From Desulfonatronovibrio sp. (lineage in GTDB: Bacteria; Desulfobacterota; Desulfovibrionia; Desulfovibrionales; Desulfonatronovibrionaceae), in NCBI GenBank assembly GCA_003566455.1, contig PXDF01000165.1:1-41997 (forward strand): 41,997 bases of DNA. The letters run 5' to 3'. How positions within the stretch are numbered: position 1 is the first letter of the stretch; every line of letters starts with the position of its first letter. Shown piece by piece: positions 6,402-18,445 of the stretch. The translations under genes and the position numbers were made by a program. Under the pieces are notes generated by a model. It was given only the letters and a program-made list of their open reading frames with translations. It was not told where the DNA came from and ran no database searches.

Positions 6402-6494
6402 ATGTTAGATAATTCCCTCAACCACACCTGTATCAATTTTTATTTTTGGTATTTTTATTTTAACAGGGCCTGTGGTCTGGAGGGAGAGGTTTAG
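6402..6494 (+). CDS. Aromatic operon leader peptide (attenuation peptide)
   Basis: 30-codon ORF MLDNSLNHTCINFYFWYFYFNRACGLEGEV* with eight consecutive aromatic codons (TTT TAT TTT TGG TAT TTT TAT TTT, 6438-6461), upstream of a terminator preceding the aromatic operon. No clear Shine-Dalgarno. Confidence 0.85.
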   Translation: MLDNSLNHTCINFYFWYFYFNRACGLEGEV

Positions 6495-6560
6495 TCTAAC
6501 AGCAACAGTTTTAAACTCACAATCCAAAGGGCCGCAGGCATAAGCCGGCGGCCCTTTTTT
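6413..6560 (+). promoter_or_regulatory. Transcription attenuator with mutually exclusive 1:2, 2:3 and 3:4 helices
   Basis: 1:2 = TCCCTC(6414-6419)/GAGGGA(6480-6485) plus ACCACA(6421-6426)/TGTGGT(6471-6476). 2:3 = GCCTGTGGTCT(6468-6478)/GGGCCGCAGGC(6529-6539), 11 pairs incl. 3 GU. 3:4 = terminator. Confidence 0.85.
6526..6560 (+). terminator. Attenuator terminator upstream of the ADH synthase gene
   Basis: AAAGGGCCGC(6526-6535)/GCGGCCCTTT(6548-6557), inner GGC-AUAA-GCC, T6 at 6555-6560. Confidence 0.92.
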
Positions 6561-6618: not shown

Positions 6619-7419
6619 ATGCATTTAGGAAAAGCCATCAGACTGGAAAGAATCTTCAACCGCAACACCGGCAGAACAATTATTGTGCCCCTTGATCATG
6701 GGGTAACCGTTGGTCCCATCTATGGCCTGGCTGATCTCAGGGCAACAGTGGGAAAAATTGCCGAGGGAGGAGCCAACGCTGTAGTCATGCATAAGGGTCT
6801 GGCCAGATGCGGCCACAGAGGCGAGGGAAGCGATGTCGGACTGATTGTTCATCTGTCAGCCAGCACATCCATTTCACCCTTTCCCAACGCCAAGACCCTT
6901 GTGGCCACAGTTGAAGACGGAATCAAGCTTGGAGCTGACGCTGTTTCGGTTCATGTTAATCTTGGAGATGAAACCGAGAGGGATATGTTAAGAGATCTGG
7001 GTGCGGTGGCTTCCAAGGCCAATGAATGGGGCATGCCCCTTCTGGCCATGGTTTACGCCAGAGGGCCCAAGGTAAGGAATGAATATGATATGGATGTTGT
7101 CAGTCATTGCGCCCGGGTTGGAGAAGAGCTTGGGGCTGATGTGGTCAAGGTTCCGTATACGGGTGAAATGGACAGTTTTTCCAAAGTTGTGGAATCGTGC
7201 TGCATTCCGGTGGTTATTGCCGGGGGGCCCAAGCTTGATAATGGCAGGGATCTGATACAGATGGTTCACGATGCTGTAGCTGCCGGAGGGGCTGGACTGT
7301 CCATAGGCCGGAATATTTTCCAGCACGACAATCCATCCTTGATAATAAAAATATTGTGCGAAGTTGTGCATAATGATGTTGAGATCGATGAAGCCATGGA
7401 AATGCTGGCAAAGGGCTAA
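6619..7419 (+). CDS. 2-amino-3,7-dideoxy-D-threo-hept-6-ulosonate (ADH) synthase, DeoC/FbaB class I aldolase family (AroA')
   Basis: [37 protein letters not shown]...; adjacent to DHQ synthase II. ATG 6619 preceded by GGGAGG; the 6559 start in the ORF track lies inside the terminator. Confidence 0.9.
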
Positions 7420-7440
7420 GTCCTTTTGCCGGCTTTTTTT
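7404..7440 (+). terminator. Strong intrinsic terminator-like hairpin overlapping the ADH synthase stop codon, internal to the operon
   Basis: GCTGGCAAAGG(7404-7414)/CCTTTTGCCGGC(7422-7433), one GU and one bulge, followed by T7 (7434-7440). Stop TAA 7417-7419 lies in the loop. Confidence 0.8.
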
Positions 7441-9891: not shown

Positions 9892-11241
9892 ATGAAAGAC
9901 AACATTGATCCGGTAATCCTCAAGGCTCCTTCCTCCAAGTCCATGTCCCACCGGGCTCTGCTGGTTGCAGGACTGGCCAGGGGGATATCCAGACTTGGAA
10001 ATATCCTTGTCAGCGATGACCTGAAACATACCAGGATGTGTCTGCAGGCCATGGGAGCTGAAATTGCCGAGTCAGGATCTGATTTGATGGTCACGGGACT
10101 TGGCGGGAAAATCTCTGCCCTTCCGGGCAAAAGAGTCAGGCTGGATGTCGGGGAATCAGGAACAACATGCAGGCTTGTGGCCGCAATTGTGGCGGCAGGA
10201 AGAGGTGAGTTTGAGATTTCAGGACGAGGCCGAATGCATCAGAGGCCGGTTAAAAGTCTTGATCATGCCCTGACACCCCAAGGCGTAAGGTTTCATTACC
10301 TGGGCCTGGACGGATGCCCGCCGCTGGTTATAAGTTCCCAGGGTTTGCCCGGAGGTGAAATAAACATTTCCCTGGACGACAGCAGCCAGTATTTGTCCGG
10401 CATTCTTCTGGCTTCCACCATGGCCGGGGACATCGTTACCATCAATATTTCCGGACAAAAGGTTGTTTCCTGGCCATATGTCAATCTTACCCTTCAGGTT
10501 ATGGAGGAATTCGGATGTGTGCCGGAGATTCATATTTCTGAAAACAGCAGCTGGAAACCGGTAAAGCCTTCAGAGATCAGGCAGGTTGAACCCGGAATGG
10601 CGAGATTCAAAGTCAGCCCCATGATATTTCCGGCCAGGGATTATCAGGTTGAAGGGGATTTTAGTAACGCCTCATATCTTCTGGCTGCCGGGGCAGTTGG
10701 TCAAAAGCCGGTCCTGGTCAGGGGGCTGAATCCTGATTCCCGGCAGGGCGACAGGGCCATTCTGGATATTCTTGCCCAGATGGGGGCCGAAGTAATCATA
10801 AAAGATAAGGAAATTCTGGTTCAAGGGGCGGGTCTCAAAGGAGTTGATCTGGATATGGGTTCCAGTCCCGATCTGGTGCCGACGGTAGCGGTTCTGGCCT
10901 CCTTGGCCCGGGGCAGAACCAGGATATGCAATGTTGCTCACCTTAAAATAAAGGAAAGTGATCGCTTGAGCGGCGTCTTTAATGAAATATCCAGAACCGG
11001 ATGTAATTGTGAACTCCTGGAAGACGGACTTGTAATTGATCCATCCGGAACAGAGGCAGGCAGGAAAATTGAGTTTTCCACATACGATGATCATCGCATG
11101 GCCATGAGCCTCTCTTTATATGAGCTCGCAGGGATTAAGGCTGTTCTGGATAATCCGGGATGTGTGAACAAGTCATTTCCAGGGTTCTGGGATGAGTGGA
11201 AAAAGATAAGAAAGGCCAATAATGTTTCCGGAAATGAGTAA
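9892..11241 (+). CDS. aroA: 3-phosphoshikimate 1-carboxyvinyltransferase
   Basis: APSSKSMSHRALLVAGLARG; DVGESGTTCRLVAAI; LKIKESDRLSG; TYDDHRMAMSLSL. Confidence 0.95.
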   Translation: MKDNIDPVILKAPSSKSMSHRALLVAGLARGISRLGNILVSDDLKHTRMCLQAMGAEIAESGSDLMVTGLGGKISALPGKRVRLDVGESGTTCRLVAAIVAAGRGEFEISGRGRMHQRPVKSLDHALTPQGVRFHYLGLDGCPPLVISSQGLPGGEINISLDDSSQYLSGILLASTMAGDIVTINISGQKVVSWPYVNLTLQVMEEFGCVPEIHISENSSWKPVKPSEIRQVEPGMARFKVSPMIFPARDYQVEGDFSNASYLLAAGAVGQKPVLVRGLNPDSRQGDRAILDILAQMGAEVIIKDKEILVQGAGLKGVDLDMGSSPDLVPTVAVLASLARGRTRICNVAHLKIKESDRLSGVFNEISRTGCNCELLEDGLVIDPSGTEAGRKIEFSTYDDHRMAMSLSLYELAGIKAVLDNPGCVNKSFPGFWDEWKKIRKANNVSGNE

Positions 11242-11998
11242 AATCGTCATAGTCGGGGGGCGCGGCCGCATGGGGAGGATGCTGGAGAAAAGCTTTGCCA
11301 TGGCCGGTGCGGAGATAATCTGTCTTGACCGGCCTTTGCCTGATGAGGAGCTTGAAGCTCTGCTCTCTCCAGCCGTTTTTGTTTTTCTGGCTGTGCCCAT
11401 TTCAGTTTTCAGCACTGTGGTGGATGATGTTGCTCCCAAAATGCCGTCAGGGGCGATCCTTGCAGATATCTGCTCAGTCAAGGTTTCCCCGCTCATGATC
11501 ATGGAAAGGTCATATCCAGGTCCAGTACTTGGCACACACCCCCTTTTCGGCCCTGAACCTGACATTGATGATGAGCTTAAAGTTGCTTTGTGTCCCGGAA
11601 GAAATATCAGCTCTTCTCAAATAACGATGGCTGAAGAATTATTTAAAAGATCAGGCATGCTGACCTTTATTACCAGCGCCCATGAACATGATCAGGCCAT
11701 GGCCTGCATCCAGAGCCTGAATTTTGTGACCACTGTTTCCTATTTTGCCAGTCTGCCCGGTAATCTTGATCTGGAAAAGTACGCTACTCCATCCTTCAGG
11801 CGCAGAGTCGACTCAGCCCGGAAGATGCTCAATGAAGACGCTTTTCTCTTTTCTTCCCTGGCTGAGGATAATCCTTATACCGGTCAGATGATCCGACGCT
11901 TCAAGTCTTTTCTTAACCTGAGCGCTGCCGGAGAACTGGAGCTCTTGCAGGATAAGGCCCTCTGGTGGTGGCGCAATGAGAAGAAACGGGGAGGATAG
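11222..11998 (+). CDS. tyrA: Prephenate dehydrogenase
   Basis: IVIVGGRGRMGRMLEKSFAMAGAEI nucleotide-binding motif; VLGTHPLFGPEPD; C-terminus DKALWWWRNEKKRGG*. Start may be 11222 or 11234. Confidence 0.92.
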   Translation: MFPEMSKIVIVGGRGRMGRMLEKSFAMAGAEIICLDRPLPDEELEALLSPAVFVFLAVPISVFSTVVDDVAPKMPSGAILADICSVKVSPLMIMERSYPGPVLGTHPLFGPEPDIDDELKVALCPGRNISSSQITMAEELFKRSGMLTFITSAHEHDQAMACIQSLNFVTTVSYFASLPGNLDLEKYATPSFRRRVDSARKMLNEDAFLFSSLAEDNPYTGQMIRRFKSFLNLSAAGELELLQDKALWWWRNEKKRGG

Positions 11999-12069
11999 CA
12001 TTGTCTTGGGAAAGATGTTCAGCAGGAATGTAAGGCCGTATCCTCCCCGTGGAGGCTGCGGCCTTTTTT
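11963..12069 (+). promoter_or_regulatory. Candidate trp attenuator using the 3' end of tyrA (Trp-Trp-Trp codons) as leader
   Basis: TGGTGGTGG 11963-11971. Antiterminator ACGGGGAGGATA(11986-11997)/TATCCTCCCCGT(12039-12050), 12 perfect pairs. Competing terminator 12032-12069. Confidence 0.78.
12032..12069 (+). terminator. Intrinsic terminator between tyrA and trpE
   Basis: AAGGCCG(12032-12038)/CGGCCTT(12059-12065) with inner CCTCC(12042-12046)/GGAGG(12051-12055), T6 at 12064-12069. Confidence 0.9.
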
Positions 12070-12105
12070 ATGGCAATTGTGTAAGGAGAAAAAGGAGAAC
12101 ATTGC

Positions 12106-13515
12106 ATGATCAGACTTAAACAAAAGGCAGTCTGTCTGCCCGCGGACACGCAAACCCCGGTGTCACTGTATCTGGGGTTTGTAGGCAGAGAAAAGGGAAT
12201 CCTGCTGGAGAGCTCCGAGGTTGACGGCAGGCTTGGACGCTACAGCCTGCTGGCCTGGGATTTCAGGATGCAGCTGGAATGCAGAGATGGAAAACTTGCT
12301 ATAAAGGTGCTGGATCATCGTCTGGATAAAGTCAGGGAACTGGAGGGCATGGAATTTACTTCCGGTCTTCGCCGGTTGTTGGGCGAACTGGAAATTGAGC
12401 CTGAAGCCGGCTTTGATCTTCCACCCATGACCAGGGCCATTTATGGTTATCTGGGCTACGGGGTGAGCGGTCTTCTTGAGCCCAGTCTTGCTGATCTCCT
12501 TCCACCCGGAGGGGCGGAAGCCCAGCTTGTGCTGCCTGGAAGGATGCTGCTTTTTGATCATCTTCACTACCATTGCTATTACCTTTGTCTGGACAATGAC
12601 GCCTCCCTTCCCAAGTCCAAACCATCCAGGGCCAGATCAGAGTTCAATATCGGAAAGATCACCACTCTGCCTGATCAGGAAAAATATCATGACTGGGTCA
12701 GAAAAACCAAAGAGCTCATCAGGCAGGGAGAGGCTATCCAGGTAGTTCTCTCCACGCGTTTTCAGGCGTCCTTTAAAGGCGATCCCTTTCTTGTGTACCG
12801 TCATCTTCGCAGGATTAATCCTTCTCCGTACACTTTTTTCCTCAAGCTTCAGGACATTACTCTTATGGGTTCTTCCCCGGAACTCATGGTCAAATGCGGG
12901 CAGAATGTGTTGCAGCTCAGGCCCATTGCCGGAACAAGACCCCGGGGTGTTACCGAGAAAGAGGATCAGCTTCTGGCGGATGAACTGTTGAGAGACGAAA
13001 AGGAGCGGGCGGAACACGTTATGCTTGTGGACCTGGGACGCAATGATCTGGGCAGAATAGCAGAGGCCGGCAGTGTTGAAGTGGATAAGTTCATGCAGGT
13101 GGAGCGCTTTTCTCATGTCATGCACCTGACATCATATCTGTCAGCCAGACTGAAGCAGGATATGGATGTGATCGATATACTTAAGGCTTCTTTTCCAGCA
13201 GGAACGGTTTCAGGAGCTCCGAAAATCAGAGCCATGGAATTAATCGGAGAGATGGAGGAAATTCAGCGCGGCCCCTATGCCGGAGCCATCGGCTGGATCG
13301 GCCTGGATCAAGGAGCGGTGAACATGGATACCGGTATTACCATCAGGAGTCTGTGGATAAGAGACGGCAGGATTGAGTGGCAGGCAGGCGCAGGGGTTGT
13401 TTTTGATTCGGTACCTGAAAAAGAATGGCAGGAATGCTCAAACAAAGCCAAGGCTATCCGCAAAGCCCTGACCAGTACAGGAGGCACTGATGATTTTGCT
13501 CATAGACAACTATGA
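12106..13515 (+). CDS. trpE: Anthranilate synthase component I
   Basis: LRPIAGTRPRGVTEKEDQLLADELLRDEKERAEHVMLVDLGRNDLGR; FPAGTVSGAPKIRAMELI. Confidence 0.95.
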   Translation: MIRLKQKAVCLPADTQTPVSLYLGFVGREKGILLESSEVDGRLGRYSLLAWDFRMQLECRDGKLAIKVLDHRLDKVRELEGMEFTSGLRRLLGELEIEPEAGFDLPPMTRAIYGYLGYGVSGLLEPSLADLLPPGGAEAQLVLPGRMLLFDHLHYHCYYLCLDNDASLPKSKPSRARSEFNIGKITTLPDQEKYHDWVRKTKELIRQGEAIQVVLSTRFQASFKGDPFLVYRHLRRINPSPYTFFLKLQDITLMGSSPELMVKCGQNVLQLRPIAGTRPRGVTEKEDQLLADELLRDEKERAEHVMLVDLGRNDLGRIAEAGSVEVDKFMQVERFSHVMHLTSYLSARLKQDMDVIDILKASFPAGTVSGAPKIRAMELIGEMEEIQRGPYAGAIGWIGLDQGAVNMDTGITIRSLWIRDGRIEWQAGAGVVFDSVPEKEWQECSNKAKAIRKALTSTGGTDDFAHRQL

Positions 13516-14065
13516 TTCCTTTACTTTCAACCTGGTTCAGGTGCTTCAAAAAATGGGCGTGGAACCGGTTGTTGTTAGAAACAGCGACTCCTTTATATTT
13601 GAAGCCCTTGAAGGCAACCTGGAGGCGGTAGTCATTTCTCCGGGTCCAGGCAGGCCTGAAAACGCGGGTCTGTGTCTTGGGCTTCTGAACAGGCTGGGAT
13701 CGGAGGTTCCTGTTTTGGGGGTCTGCCTTGGTCATCAGATTTTGGGGTATTTTGCCGGGGCTGAAGTCCGGGTTGCCGACAGGATAATGCATGGCAAAAC
13801 CAGTATGGTTTACCATGATCAGACCGGGGTATACAACAATGTTTCAAATCCCCTTGAAGTCTGCAGGTACCATTCACTGGTGGTTGAGCATGAAAACAAT
13901 CTCAGCTTCAAGGTAACAGCCAGAACTGAAGAGAACGAGGTTATGGGCCTTGAATTTGTTGACCGGCCATGGATAGGAGTACAGTTTCACCCTGAATCAA
14001 TACTCACTCCCATGGGGCCCAGGATTGTTGAAAACTTCATAATTATGGCCGGTGTAAAACAATAG
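13490..14065 (+). CDS. trpG: Anthranilate synthase component II (glutamine amidotransferase)
   Basis: MILLIDNYDSFTFNLVQ; VISPGPGRPENAG; VLGVCLGHQ; GVQFHPESI. Overlaps trpE by 26 nt. Confidence 0.95.
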   Translation: MILLIDNYDSFTFNLVQVLQKMGVEPVVVRNSDSFIFEALEGNLEAVVISPGPGRPENAGLCLGLLNRLGSEVPVLGVCLGHQILGYFAGAEVRVADRIMHGKTSMVYHDQTGVYNNVSNPLEVCRYHSLVVEHENNLSFKVTARTEENEVMGLEFVDRPWIGVQFHPESILTPMGPRIVENFIIMAGVKQ

Positions 14066-14087
14066 ATCTTATAACAGAGGAAACCTC

Positions 14088-15080
14088 ATGAATATCCAGA
14101 AATCATTGAATAAGATATGTGATAAACAGAACCTTGATTACCACGAAAGCAGGGATATTTTCAGGGCTTTGTTTGAAGGCGGCTTGACCGGAGCCCAGAG
14201 CGGGGCTCTGCTTCTTGGTCTGAGGTTCAAAGGCGAGACAGGTGATGAACTTGGAGCCGCTGTAAGCGTGGCCCTGGAAAAGGCCCGGCTGGTTGACAAT
14301 GTCAGAGGAATTCGCATCGATACCTGCGGGACTGGAGGTGACGGGAGGAGCAGCTTCAACTGTTCAACAGCAGTGGCTTTTTTTCTGGCTGATCTTGGCG
14401 TAAAGGTGGTCAAGCACGGCAACCGGGCAGTGTCCAGTTCAAGCGGCAGCGCTGATGTGGTTGAGGCTCTGGGGCTGCCTCTTCTGGATGACCCTTTAAA
14501 GGTTGAACCTGAACTGGCCAGGACAAACTTTGCCTTTCTCTTTGCGCCGCATTTTCATCCAAGTTTTGCGCAAATCGCCCCTCTCCGGAAAGAGCTGGGC
14601 ATAAGAAGCATATTCAATCTGATGGGGCCTCTTCTCAACCCAGCCAGGCCCACTCACCAGGTCCTGGGGGTTCCCTGCACATCTTTCATGCCCATAATGG
14701 CTGATGTCCTGGTCAAGAATAATGTAGTGTCAGCGGCTGTTGTCCATGGGTCCGGTGGTTTTGATGAGCTTTCTCCATGCGGGAACAACAGGGTGATTTT
14801 TGTTCACGAGGGCAGTCTGAAAGAGGAGATAATCGATCCTTCAGAATTCGGGTTTCCCGCATGTCTTCCCGAAGCAATGGTCTGCAGAAACAAGGAGGAA
14901 GCACTGTTGAGGCAGAAAGAAATTCTGCGCGGTGCGGGCAAAGAAGCCATGCAGGACATGGTTGCCCTGAATCTGGGCCTTGGTCTCCACCTGATTGAGC
15001 CCGGCAAAAATTTAAGAAAATGCATGCTTCTGGCCAGAGATATTGTCAGGTCCGGGCTTCAGAATTTAAAGGTCTGCTGA
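14088..15080 (+). CDS. trpD: Anthranilate phosphoribosyltransferase
   Basis: DTCGTGGDGRSSFNCSTAVAF; KHGNRAVSSSSGSADVVEALG; NLMGPLLNPARP. Confidence 0.95.
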   Translation: MNIQKSLNKICDKQNLDYHESRDIFRALFEGGLTGAQSGALLLGLRFKGETGDELGAAVSVALEKARLVDNVRGIRIDTCGTGGDGRSSFNCSTAVAFFLADLGVKVVKHGNRAVSSSSGSADVVEALGLPLLDDPLKVEPELARTNFAFLFAPHFHPSFAQIAPLRKELGIRSIFNLMGPLLNPARPTHQVLGVPCTSFMPIMADVLVKNNVVSAAVVHGSGGFDELSPCGNNRVIFVHEGSLKEEIIDPSEFGFPACLPEAMVCRNKEEALLRQKEILRGAGKEAMQDMVALNLGLGLHLIEPGKNLRKCMLLARDIVRSGLQNLKVC

Positions 15081-15081
15081 T

Positions 15082-15855
15082 ATGAAAAGCCGGATGATTG
15101 AAGAATTCGTCAAGTCCAAACAGGAAGAGATCAACCTGTTGAAACAACTTGAAGCCGGGACAGGGCTTCCCCTTCCTTACCAGGGGCCGAGGCCAGGACT
15201 GAGGCAGGCCCTGACCAGGTCCGGGCCCCGCGTAATCGCTGAATATAAAAGGGCCTCGCCGTCCAGGGGAGTCATAAATTCCGGAATATTTCCCCATGAG
15301 GCGGCGGAAATGTTTGTCAGAGGTGGGGCAGACGCTTTTTCCGTGCTTACGGAAAAAAGGTATTTTCAGGGCGCCATCAGTTTTGTGGATATTTTTGCCG
15401 GAAATGGTCTGCCTGTGCTGCGCAAGGATTTTGTGTTTCATCCTCTGCAGATAATAGAGACAGCCGCGACAATGGCTTCGGCTGTTTTGCTCATTGTCAG
15501 AATTTTCCAGGAACAGGGGCTCTTAATGAGGCTTGTAGAAATGAGCCTTGGATATGACCTGGAGCCAGTAGTGGAAATATTCAGCCGAGAGGAATTGGAG
15601 ACAGCCAGGAAATCCGGGGCCAGAACCATACTTGTCAACAACAGGGATCTGGACACGCTTAGTGTGAATCTGGATGTTTCCAGGAAATTGATCAAAGAAA
15701 AACACAAAAATGAAACCTGGATCTGCGCCAGCGGAATAGAAAATAAATCTCAGGTGGATGAATTATACAGCTCAGGGTTTGATGCCTTTCTTATCGGCAC
15801 CAGCATCATGTCTTCAGGTGATCCTGAGGCAAGGTTAAGGGAGCTGAAAATATGA
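15082..15855 (+). CDS. trpC: Indole-3-glycerol phosphate synthase
   Basis: VIAEYKRASPSRGVIN; SVLTEKRYFQG; LRKDFVFHPLQI; LVNNRDLDTLSV. Confidence 0.95.
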   Translation: MKSRMIEEFVKSKQEEINLLKQLEAGTGLPLPYQGPRPGLRQALTRSGPRVIAEYKRASPSRGVINSGIFPHEAAEMFVRGGADAFSVLTEKRYFQGAISFVDIFAGNGLPVLRKDFVFHPLQIIETAATMASAVLLIVRIFQEQGLLMRLVEMSLGYDLEPVVEIFSREELETARKSGARTILVNNRDLDTLSVNLDVSRKLIKEKHKNETWICASGIENKSQVDELYSSGFDAFLIGTSIMSSGDPEARLRELKI

Positions 15856-16472
15856 GCAGGCTGCTGATCAAGGTCTGTGGACTGACCAGCCTGGAGGATT
15901 TGAAGTTTTGCCGGGATCAGGGCATTGATCTGACCGGCTTTATATTTCATCCTTCAAGTCCCAGGCATGTCAGCCCAAAGCTTGTGGGCTCCTGGGAAAA
16001 GAAAGATGAACTCAGGGTCGGAGTTTTTGTTGAGCATAAACCAGAAGAAATACTCAAGACAATCGACATGGCCGGGCTGGACCTGATCCAGCTTCACGGA
16101 GGGCAGGACCGGGAAACCTGTGACCTGATGGGCGGCGCCCACAGGGTGATCAGAACGTTCTGGCCGGAACGTTTTGAACTGGTCCAGGATTTTATGGCTG
16201 AACTCGATGCATTCAGGCATGTATGCAGGTATTTTCTCTTTGACGCCGGTAAAAACATGGGAGGCCACGGAAGAAGCATAGCCAGCCCCTGGTTGAAACA
16301 GGCGGCAAGCCCAAGGCCCTATCTTCTGGCAGGCGGTCTTGGCCCTGACAATATAGCAGGAGTCCTGAATTCCGGCGCGGCCGGTCTTGATCTCAACTCC
16401 GGTGTTGAAAGCAGTCCAGGTGTGAAGAGCAGGCAGAGAATCATGCGCGTACTAAATATTATCAGGAGATAA
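15852..16472 (+). CDS. trpF: Phosphoribosylanthranilate isomerase
   Basis: [55 protein letters not shown]. Confidence 0.93.
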
Positions 16473-16474
16473 AA

Positions 16475-17647
16475 ATGAAAAAAGGATATTTTGGTGAATT
16501 CGGGGGACAATTTGTTCCTGAACTTCTGGTTCCTCCCCTGAGGGAGCTTGAAGAAGCCATGCAGGACATCATGGACGATCCAGTATTCAACAGGGATCTG
16601 GACGGGGTGTTCACGGAATTTGTGGGCAGGCCCACCCCCATATGCAGGTGCGCAAACCTGTCCGGCGATCTGGGCTTTGATCTGTGGCTGAAAAGAGAGG
16701 ATCTGGCTCATACCGGCGCGCATAAGATAAATAATACCGTGGGTCAGGCCCTACTGGCCAGGCATATGGGCAAAACCTGCCTTCTGGCCGAGACCGGGGC
16801 GGGACAGCACGGAGTGGCAACAGCCACGGCCGCTTCTGTTCTGGGTCTGGAATGCGTTGTTTTCATGGGCGCTCTGGATGTCAAAAGGCAAAGCCACAAT
16901 GTAAGACGCATGGAGCTTCTGGGGGCAAGGGTGGAGCCTGTGCTAAGCGGCACAAAGACCCTAAAGGACGCCATTAACGCGGCTCTGAGATATTGGATAG
17001 CCCATCAGAAAAACACCCATTACTGTCTGGGTTCTGTTGTTGGACCGCATCCTTTCCCTCTGCTGGTCAGGAAACTGCAGTCTGTTATCGGCCGGGAGGC
17101 AAGAAGCCAGTTTCTGGACAGAACCGGCAGGCTTCCTGACCTGGTGGTGGCCTGCGTGGGCGGCGGCTCCAATGCAATGGGCATCTTTCATCCCTTTGCC
17201 GGTGACAGGGAAGTGCAGCTGGTGGGAGTTGAAGCCGGAGGAGAAGGGAGGCCTGGGTGTTATCATTCAGCAACCCTGTCCAGGGGCAGTTTCGGAGTTC
17301 TGCACGGAACCCGAACCTATCTGCTTCAGACCTCAGAGGGGCAGATTATGCCTTCTCACTCGGTGGCTCCTGGGCTTGATTATCCCGGAGTAGGGCCTGA
17401 ACACGCCTTTTTAAAGGACAGCGGCCGGGCCAGGTATGATGTGGTTTATGACGCAGAGGCCCTTGAAGCCTTTTACCTCCTGTGCCGCAAAGAAGGCATA
17501 ATCCCTGCTCTGGAAAGCTCCCATGCTCTGGCCTGGGTTATTGGCAACCGGGATAAAATCAGGCCGCAAAGCGCGGTGCTTGTGAATCTGTCCGGCAGAG
17601 GGGACAAGGATCTGGATATTGTCCGGGAAATTGAATCCCAGGTTTAG
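16475..17647 (+). CDS. trpB: Tryptophan synthase beta subunit
   Basis: [66 protein letters not shown]. Confidence 0.96.
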
Positions 17648-17674
17648 AAAACTCTAAATTTTCAAGGAAGAATA

Positions 17675-18445
17675 ATGAAAAAGGAAAATATACTTACCCA
17701 GAGAATCAGCCAGGCCGTGAAGGGCGGGCGCAGGGCTCTGATTCCCTTTGTTCCAGCAGGTTTTCCGGATAAGGATGTGTTCTGGGATATAATAATGGAG
17801 CTGGACAGATCCGGGGCGGACATAATTGAAATCGGGGTTCCTTTTTCAGACCCTGTGGCTGACGGGCCGGTGGTGGAAAATGCGTCCATCAGATGCCTTG
17901 AGCAGGGGATTGGCCTTGCCTGGATAATGGAGGGGCTTTCTCAAGTCAGAGAAAAAATCGAGGCAGGCATTGTGCTCATGGGATATTTTAATCCCTTTTT
18001 GCAGTACGGTCTGGAAAAGCTGGCAACACGAGCCGAAGAAGCCGGCGTAAACGGACTGATCATTCCTGATCTTATCCTGGAGGAGGCAGGTCCTCATCTG
18101 AAGCTGCTGGAAACTCACGGGCTGTCTTTTGTGCCGCTGGTTGGGCTGAACACTCCAAAAAGACGCATGGCTGAATACTCTGAATTAGGCCCGGCTTTTG
18201 TCTATCTGGTATCAGTGCTGGGCATTACCGGGACAAAGGTCAGCGCCGGCCAGTTATTAAGAACAAAGCTGCAGGAGGTGAAGGATGTATTCTCCTGTCC
18301 TGTTGCCCTTGGCTTCGGCCTGAGTTCCAGGGATCAACTGGATTCAACGGCTGATCTGGTGGACGCGGTGGTGTTCGGCAGTGCTCTGATTCAGCACCTT
18401 GATTCCGGAAAAAAAGCAGGTGATTTCATGAAGGGCTGGAACTGA
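17675..18445 (+). CDS. trpA: Tryptophan synthase alpha subunit
   Basis: LIPFVPAGFPDKD; IIEIGVPFSDPVADGPVVENASIR; LGFGLSSRDQL. Confidence 0.95.
   Translation: MKKENILTQRISQAVKGGRRALIPFVPAGFPDKDVFWDIIMELDRSGADIIEIGVPFSDPVADGPVVENASIRCLEQGIGLAWIMEGLSQVREKIEAGIVLMGYFNPFLQYGLEKLATRAEEAGVNGLIIPDLILEEAGPHLKLLETHGLSFVPLVGLNTPKRRMAEYSELGPAFVYLVSVLGITGTKVSAGQLLRTKLQEVKDVFSCPVALGFGLSSRDQLDSTADLVDAVVFGSALIQHLDSGKKAGDFMKGWN

Follow-up and report, generated by a model that had tools for sequence, protein, structure and literature searches.

Evidence for a tryptophan attenuator with the C-terminus of TyrA as its probable leader peptide in the aro-trp supraoperon of Desulfovibrionales

Introduction

The enteric trp attenuator (trpL; Rfam RF00513, Trp_leader) combines tandem Trp codons, alternative terminator and antiterminator structures and a downstream trpE. 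A full-length upstream gene can also serve as the leader; the nearest such case is rph-pyrE of E. coli, in which the terminator lies between the two genes (PMC2784333). Pyrimidine supply is sensed there through coupling near the terminator, and there are no control codons. For Desulfovibrio vulgaris, the Merino database (Table 7 of PMC1173090) gives a putative attenuator ahead of the aroA'-aroB'-pheA-aroF-tyrA-[trp] supraoperon. It is placed ahead of aroA', and the text does not mention any attenuator at the tyrA-trpE junction. A paper on Desulfovibrio regulons (PMC545781) mentions neither tyrA, nor trpE, nor attenuators.

Leader peptides are usually seen as disposable mini-genes. In this study we describe an element at the tyrA-trpE junction of Desulfonatronovibrio sp. 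that suggests that the sulfate reducers of the order Desulfovibrionales have welded a leader peptide onto a working enzyme. The analysis started from a 41,997-nucleotide stretch of contig PXDF01000165.1, referred to hereafter as the window. The element resembles the enteric attenuator in its tandem Trp codons, its terminator and antiterminator alternatives and the trpE gene downstream, but its leader forms the end of a 258-residue enzyme, it lies within a larger operon and no more than two competing structures were seen. An end-to-end alignment to RF00513 over 11960-12071 scored 12.9 bits (E 4.7) against a gathering cut-off of 41, and no Rfam family reached its gathering cut-off in the window or in four loci with stand-alone leaders (L208, L210, L211 and L222, all Desulfovibrionales). 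The element shares with rph-pyrE a full-length upstream gene and a terminator between genes, but it has Trp codons and an antiterminator, and its stop codon lies about 30 nt from the terminator. Stand-alone trp leaders elsewhere in the phylum have a WWW(W) run with similar spacing and a similar type of terminator, and in four genomes they lie directly downstream of tyrA; in contrast to the TyrA tail, they are separate ORFs of 13-25 aa with their own start and no enzyme fusion. Searches of the open literature found no description of a trp attenuator embedded in tyrA.

Results

The window carries an aro-trp supraoperon in the order aroA' (a DeoC/LacD-type aldolase homolog), aroB' (DHQ synthase II), pheA (CM-PDT-ACT), aroA/F (EPSP synthase), tyrA and trpEGDCFBA. 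Pfam matches support the identities of the four upstream genes (DeoC/LacD-type, DHQ synthase II, CM-PDT-ACT and EPSP synthase), of TyrA (PDH_N) and of TrpE (anthranilate synthase I). The tyrA-trpE element, the trp genes and the first attenuator described below are on the forward strand. The tyrA gene (11222..11998) encodes a prephenate dehydrogenase of 258 residues whose C-terminus is the proposed sensing peptide. Its membership in the TyrA fold is supported by a match to PF02153 (E 5.6e-13) and by an AlphaFold model (pLDDT 92.7) whose best PDB match is TyrA of H. influenzae (2pv7, E 2e-19). The first gene under the proposed control is trpE (12106..13515; Pfam Chorismate_bind and Anth_synt_I_N), followed by trpG, trpD, trpC, trpF, trpB and trpA (13490..18445); among these ORFs trpG, trpD, trpC and trpB were identified by Pfam and trpF and trpA were named from sequence and gene order.

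The original prediction called the tyrA-trpE element a second attenuator, and a first one is present at the head of the supraoperon, ahead of the first aro gene. It consists of a leader (6402-6494; translation MLDNSLNHTCINFYFWYFYFNRACGLEGEV), which contains FYFWYFYF, and a terminator (6529-6560; GGGCCGCAGGCATAAGCCGGCGGCCC then TTTTTT), and it corresponds to the attenuator listed for D. vulgaris (PMC1173090), where the supraoperon is the same. Near the end of this leader, GCCTGTGGT could base-pair with GCCGCAGGC of the terminator arm, a two-element design like that at tyrA-trpE. Elsewhere in the supraoperon, a strong terminator-like hairpin (7404-7433; 12 pairs, then TTTTTTT) overlaps the aroA' stop codon ahead of aroB'. 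This hairpin may act through coupling, since a terminating ribosome would block it.

TyrA ends in WWWRNEKKRGG (full tail ALWWWRNEKKRGG). The proposed control codons are three consecutive TGG codons (11963-11971) in frame with tyrA, and the segment after them (11972-11995, RNEKKRGG) encodes arm 1 of the antiterminator and is predicted to be mostly disordered (pLDDT about 55 after residue 250). Arm 1 (ACGGGGAGGATA, 11986-11997) starts after a gap of 14 nt from the TGG run and ends on the first two bases (TA) of the TAG stop (11996-11998). It forms 12 bp with arm 2 (TATCCTCCCCGT, 12039-12050), which is common to the antiterminator and to an intrinsic terminator (12032-12069) made up of the hairpin AAGGCCGTATCCTCCCCGTGGAGGCTGCGGCCTT (12032-12065; -23.5 kcal/mol) and a U-tract to 12069; the terminator scan returned a partial stem. 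When the sequence was read directly, the Trp run, both arms and the terminator all lay where the original prediction had placed them, and the 12-nt complementarity to the inside of the terminator before trpE was exact. The locus has two elements expected of an attenuator: a run of Trp codons in a frame that is translated ahead of the operon, and an intrinsic terminator before the first structural gene. Pairing of arm 1 with the terminator was equalled by 1 in 3000 dinucleotide shuffles of a 60-nt interval, and there are just two copies of TGGTGGTGG in the 42-kb window. The stability of the whole region in RNAfold was not exceptional (z -1.15), because the terminator and antiterminator compete.

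We infer that the element senses Trp through the position of the ribosome and that termination in vivo responds to Trp. When charged Trp-tRNA is scarce, the leading ribosome would stall on the WWW codons and leave arm 1 (11986-11997) bare. Bare arm 1 would pair with arm 2 (12039-12050) as it emerges, which would block the terminator and allow transcription of trpE and the genes downstream. With sufficient Trp, the ribosome would reach the TAG and cover arm 1, and the terminator would form. Specificity for Trp is suggested by the identity of the codons only.

Measured from the first base of the P-site codon, the footprint of a ribosome extends about 15 nt downstream. In a footprint model, about 99% of arm 1 bases were free with the third Trp codon in the A site and covered with the stop codon in the A site. 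For the window, the modelled probability of the terminator was 0.00 with the ribosome stalled and 0.97 with the ribosome at the stop, and that of the antiterminator was 0.98 and 0.00, respectively. With a stalled ribosome and folding at equilibrium, the antiterminator exceeded 0.5 in only 12 of 69 loci and the terminator won in most species; before the 3' arm of the terminator is made, the antiterminator dominates in 63 of the 69. The switch is therefore probably kinetic. Neither a pause hairpin nor a protector (1:2) structure, of the kind that would keep ribosome and polymerase in step, was noticed. As a stalled ribosome leaves TyrA unfinished, Trp shortage might, speculatively, also lower the output of TyrA; stalling at WWW would delay completion of the enzyme at low Trp and might, just as speculatively, favor the flow of chorismate to Trp.

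tyrA was found in 280 of 297 Desulfovibrionales genomes, and 103 tyrA loci from the order were read. The complete module (a Trp run and arm 1, then a terminator containing arm 2, then trpE) was found at 69 of the 103, in six families and 22 genera, with two loci ending at a contig end. Three or four Trp residues are present at 68 of these 69 attenuator loci and the terminator was found in all of them. Named genomes with the module include members of Desulfonatronovibrio, Desulfonatronospira, Desulfonauticus, Desulfomicrobium, Desulfonatronum, Humidesulfovibrio, Pseudodesulfovibrio, Halodesulfovibrio and Nitratidesulfovibrio, a set that overlaps largely with the 69-locus sample and follows the same pattern. 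A covariance model (R1), built from 24 loci including that of the window, had a single match in the window's own genome, the tyrA-trpE element (E 5e-18), and matched 29 of 31 relatives. Weaker second matches (E about 1e-4) occur in two genomes of the same family (G003:C58:1324-1436 and G010:C97:1042-1151).

The Trp run had been expected only where a terminator and trp genes follow tyrA. The full module does keep to this context: it was seen only where trpE follows tyrA, two contig-truncated loci excepted. The run itself does not, as WWW is kept in Desulfovibrio, Bilophila and relatives with trp elsewhere. TyrA of the Desulfovibrionales hardly varies at the second and third Trp of the run, and the first Trp is lost (ARLWW) in two genomes of the Desulfomicrobium family in which trpE was not detectable. 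In the AlphaFold model WWW falls within a C-terminal helix (239-256). Part of the Trp run may therefore be structural, since WW is near-invariant in TyrA proteins that lack any attenuator. The tail after the helix was modelled with low confidence, so the residues that encode arm 1 are likely free to vary.

The antiterminator, which is exclusive with the terminator, is kept by selection. With one locus per genus, the duplex between an arm and its own terminator averaged -25.0 kcal/mol, compared to -19.0 kcal/mol with the terminators of other species. The difference between self and cross-species duplexes among these genus representatives (z -8.9) was reached in 0 of 20,000 permutations, and z ranged from -8.3 to -9.5 over five random redraws. 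The signal persisted when permutation was restricted to families (z -10.3) or to genera (z -5.2). In an unguided MAFFT alignment (A1), 77.1% of cells pair, compared to 50-63.5% when the partner was slid, and there were 23 two-sided compensatory changes versus 12.3±3.0 in shuffled data. Because this alignment misplaces the arm in loci with short tails (e.g. L029), its pair counts are weakened, and we rely mainly on the duplex test, which needs no alignment. Both analyses bear out the covariation of 11986-11997 with 12039-12050 that the original prediction called for. Arms that changed together include GGGAGGAC x GTCCTCCC, GGGGGAAGGGC x GTCCTTCCCTC, AAAGGGAAGGA x TCCTTCCCTTT, GAGAAGTGC x GCACTTCTC, GGGACGCGGC x GCCGCGTCCC and GGGGTGCGG x CCGCACCCC.

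The distance from the last Trp codon to the start of arm 1 has a median of 17 nt (10-90%: 15-21) and an SD of 2.6 nt, compared to an SD of 7.5 nt for the distance from the arm to the stop. At L029, where the tail is four codons long (WWWRDKA-TAG followed by GGACGCGGC), arm 1 begins at the last base of the stop and runs into non-coding sequence, still at +15. Arm 1 keeps its spacing to the Trp codons whether it is coding or past the stop; its position is set by these codons rather than by the reading frame. Codon choice in the tail is also biased: GGG or GGA accounts for 102 of 113 Gly codons in the tails of the 69 attenuator loci, whereas the bodies have 474 of 1158 (p 8.8e-26). At loci without the attenuator there was no such bias in the tails (21/46 compared to 204/558 in bodies, p 0.27).

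In Desulfovibrio sensu stricto, Bilophila and others, where TyrA has WWW and trp lies elsewhere, tyrA no longer has the arm, the terminator or the Gly-codon bias. The relocated trpE is preceded, in the genomes checked, by a short ORF, for example MNVFSNTISNSFKGWWWRIQLRGGDVRA or MLNAFSLTFSAYRWWWRVVDVKGGVRPA. These stand-alone leaders have a Trp pair or triplet at 17 of 18 loci, an arm at +15 to +18 and the same terminator, and they resemble the nearest embedded tails, WWWRSHTERGGVRPS in Nitratidesulfovibrio and WWWREDNDTGGVRQ in Halodesulfovibrio. In a tree of TyrA built without the tails, the relocated-trp clade (23 rows, a few of them loci from genomes in which trpE was either not found or not looked for) is nested within the embedded lineages and joins Nitratidesulfovibrio and Halodesulfovibrio with 100/100 support. 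TrpE of this clade is 52-55% identical to that of the window, compared to 38-44% for TrpE of other classes, so the trp operon was inherited within the order.

No Trp run was found in TyrA of the other classes of the phylum. In many families of those classes the covariance model matches short leader ORFs with WWW in front of trp genes, for example MKRILSIGNSWWWWKNIGEGFVHR; stand-alone WWW leaders in other families of the phylum were recorded at L237-L244, L246-L250, L253, L254 and L256. Judging by the four Desulfovibrionales loci scanned, such leaders seem to have no Rfam family of their own. The leader lies directly between tyrA and the trp genes in four genomes (one in family f18, two in f69 and one in f74), with the Trp run 54-161 nt past the tyrA stop, and in three of the four it is in the frame of tyrA.

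Discussion

We consider it very probable that the tyrA-trpE element is a Trp-responsive, ribosome-mediated transcription attenuator inside the aro-trp supraoperon, with the C-terminus of TyrA as its leader peptide. This leader would have been fused to the enzyme and later detached in the Desulfovibrio lineage. The conservation, co-evolution and spacing reported above support, on computational grounds, the original prediction of a Trp attenuator in the 3' end of tyrA. An improbable alternative is that the terminator is an ordinary intercistronic one, giving partial polarity between aro and trp, that the Trp cluster of TyrA is purely structural and that the complementarity reflects chance or a G/C-rich bias. 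The near-invariant WW inside a predicted helix, the persistence of WWW in Desulfovibrio without trp and the preference for the terminator at equilibrium would all fit such a terminator. It would not account for arms that co-evolve at a fixed spacing from the Trp codons, for a Gly-codon bias found only with the attenuator, or for stand-alone leaders that carry the same module free of any enzyme. Retention of WWW in TyrA without trp is explained by the same WWW module in the short leader ORF before the relocated trpE in the genomes checked. Polarity by translation coupling, as in rph-pyrE, would likewise involve a terminator right behind the stop of a full-length upstream gene (PMC2784333): a ribosome close behind RNA polymerase would sterically block the terminator, and Trp starvation would slow ribosomes and raise termination. 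This is the wrong sign for a biosynthetic operon and leaves the co-evolving arms unexplained. In E. coli, termination is maximal when the stop-to-terminator distance exceeds about 27-30 nt (PMC4824070); at 33 nt in the window and a median of 30 nt overall, the terminator would not be blocked by a ribosome that has reached the stop. We therefore rejected coupling of this type on distance, as the terminator is not close enough to the stop, and regard it as very unlikely.

As a form of translational control, the pair GGGGAGGA/TCCTCCCC might be a Shine-Dalgarno/anti-Shine-Dalgarno device that gates initiation or re-initiation at trpE, and arm 1 of the window does resemble a Shine-Dalgarno sequence. 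However, loci of the Humidesulfovibrio and Pseudodesulfovibrio type keep the pairing with arms (GGGACGCGGC or GGTGCGGC) that are not Shine-Dalgarno-like, and trpE starts 85 to several hundred nt past the tyrA stop, in the window with a Shine-Dalgarno-like sequence of its own, which makes this device extremely unlikely. If a short leader ORF with a start of its own were hidden in the 3' end of tyrA, the sensing peptide would not be TyrA itself. The window offers a TTG at 11945 with GGAG 3 nt upstream, but 27 of the 69 loci have no in-frame ATG, GTG or TTG within 48 nt and a well-spaced Shine-Dalgarno-like site is present at 3 of 69. An internal start was rejected because neither start codon nor Shine-Dalgarno sequence is conserved across the 69 loci, and a hidden ORF seems highly improbable.

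The distribution suggests how this attenuator arose. A stand-alone trp leader ORF between tyrA and trpE would have fused in frame to tyrA in the ancestor of the Desulfovibrionales; loss of the intervening stops and the linker from a tyrA-leader-trp arrangement would give the state seen in the order. The direction of this change is inferred. On relocation of trp in the Desulfovibrio/Bilophila/Mailhella lineage, the leader would have reverted to a stand-alone ORF. It is likely that the fused leader was kept across the order as a dual-purpose tail, both part of the enzyme and a Trp sensor for the next operon, and was released in one sub-lineage. The original prediction called the use of an enzyme tail as sensing peptide unusual; the sensing role of the tail is supported, but the tail is better described as an order-wide, apparently fused trp leader peptide than as a peculiarity of one enzyme.

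Living examples resemble the states before, during and after fusion of a leader, which opens the evolution of leader peptides to direct tests. In a coding tail, selection can act on RNA pairing and on the identity of codons in addition to protein. Attenuators can hide within annotated genes, where searches for short leader ORFs would miss them, and the tyrA-trpE element suggests how one operon within a supraoperon can gain amino-acid control of its own.

Among the remaining loci, a clade of the Fundidesulfovibrio/Solidesulfovibrio type (L058, L066, L074, L084, L086, L097, L105 and L106) has trpE adjoining tyrA and no terminator, and the Trp run is mostly decayed (GWW, AWW); at L084, trpE starts at the tyrA stop. 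At L069, from a genome of the Ca. Desulfovibrio kirbyi type, the tyrA frame enters an apparent tRNA gene of opposite orientation and encodes the unusual tail WWWGTNLVREGGVEPPCRIGAGS.
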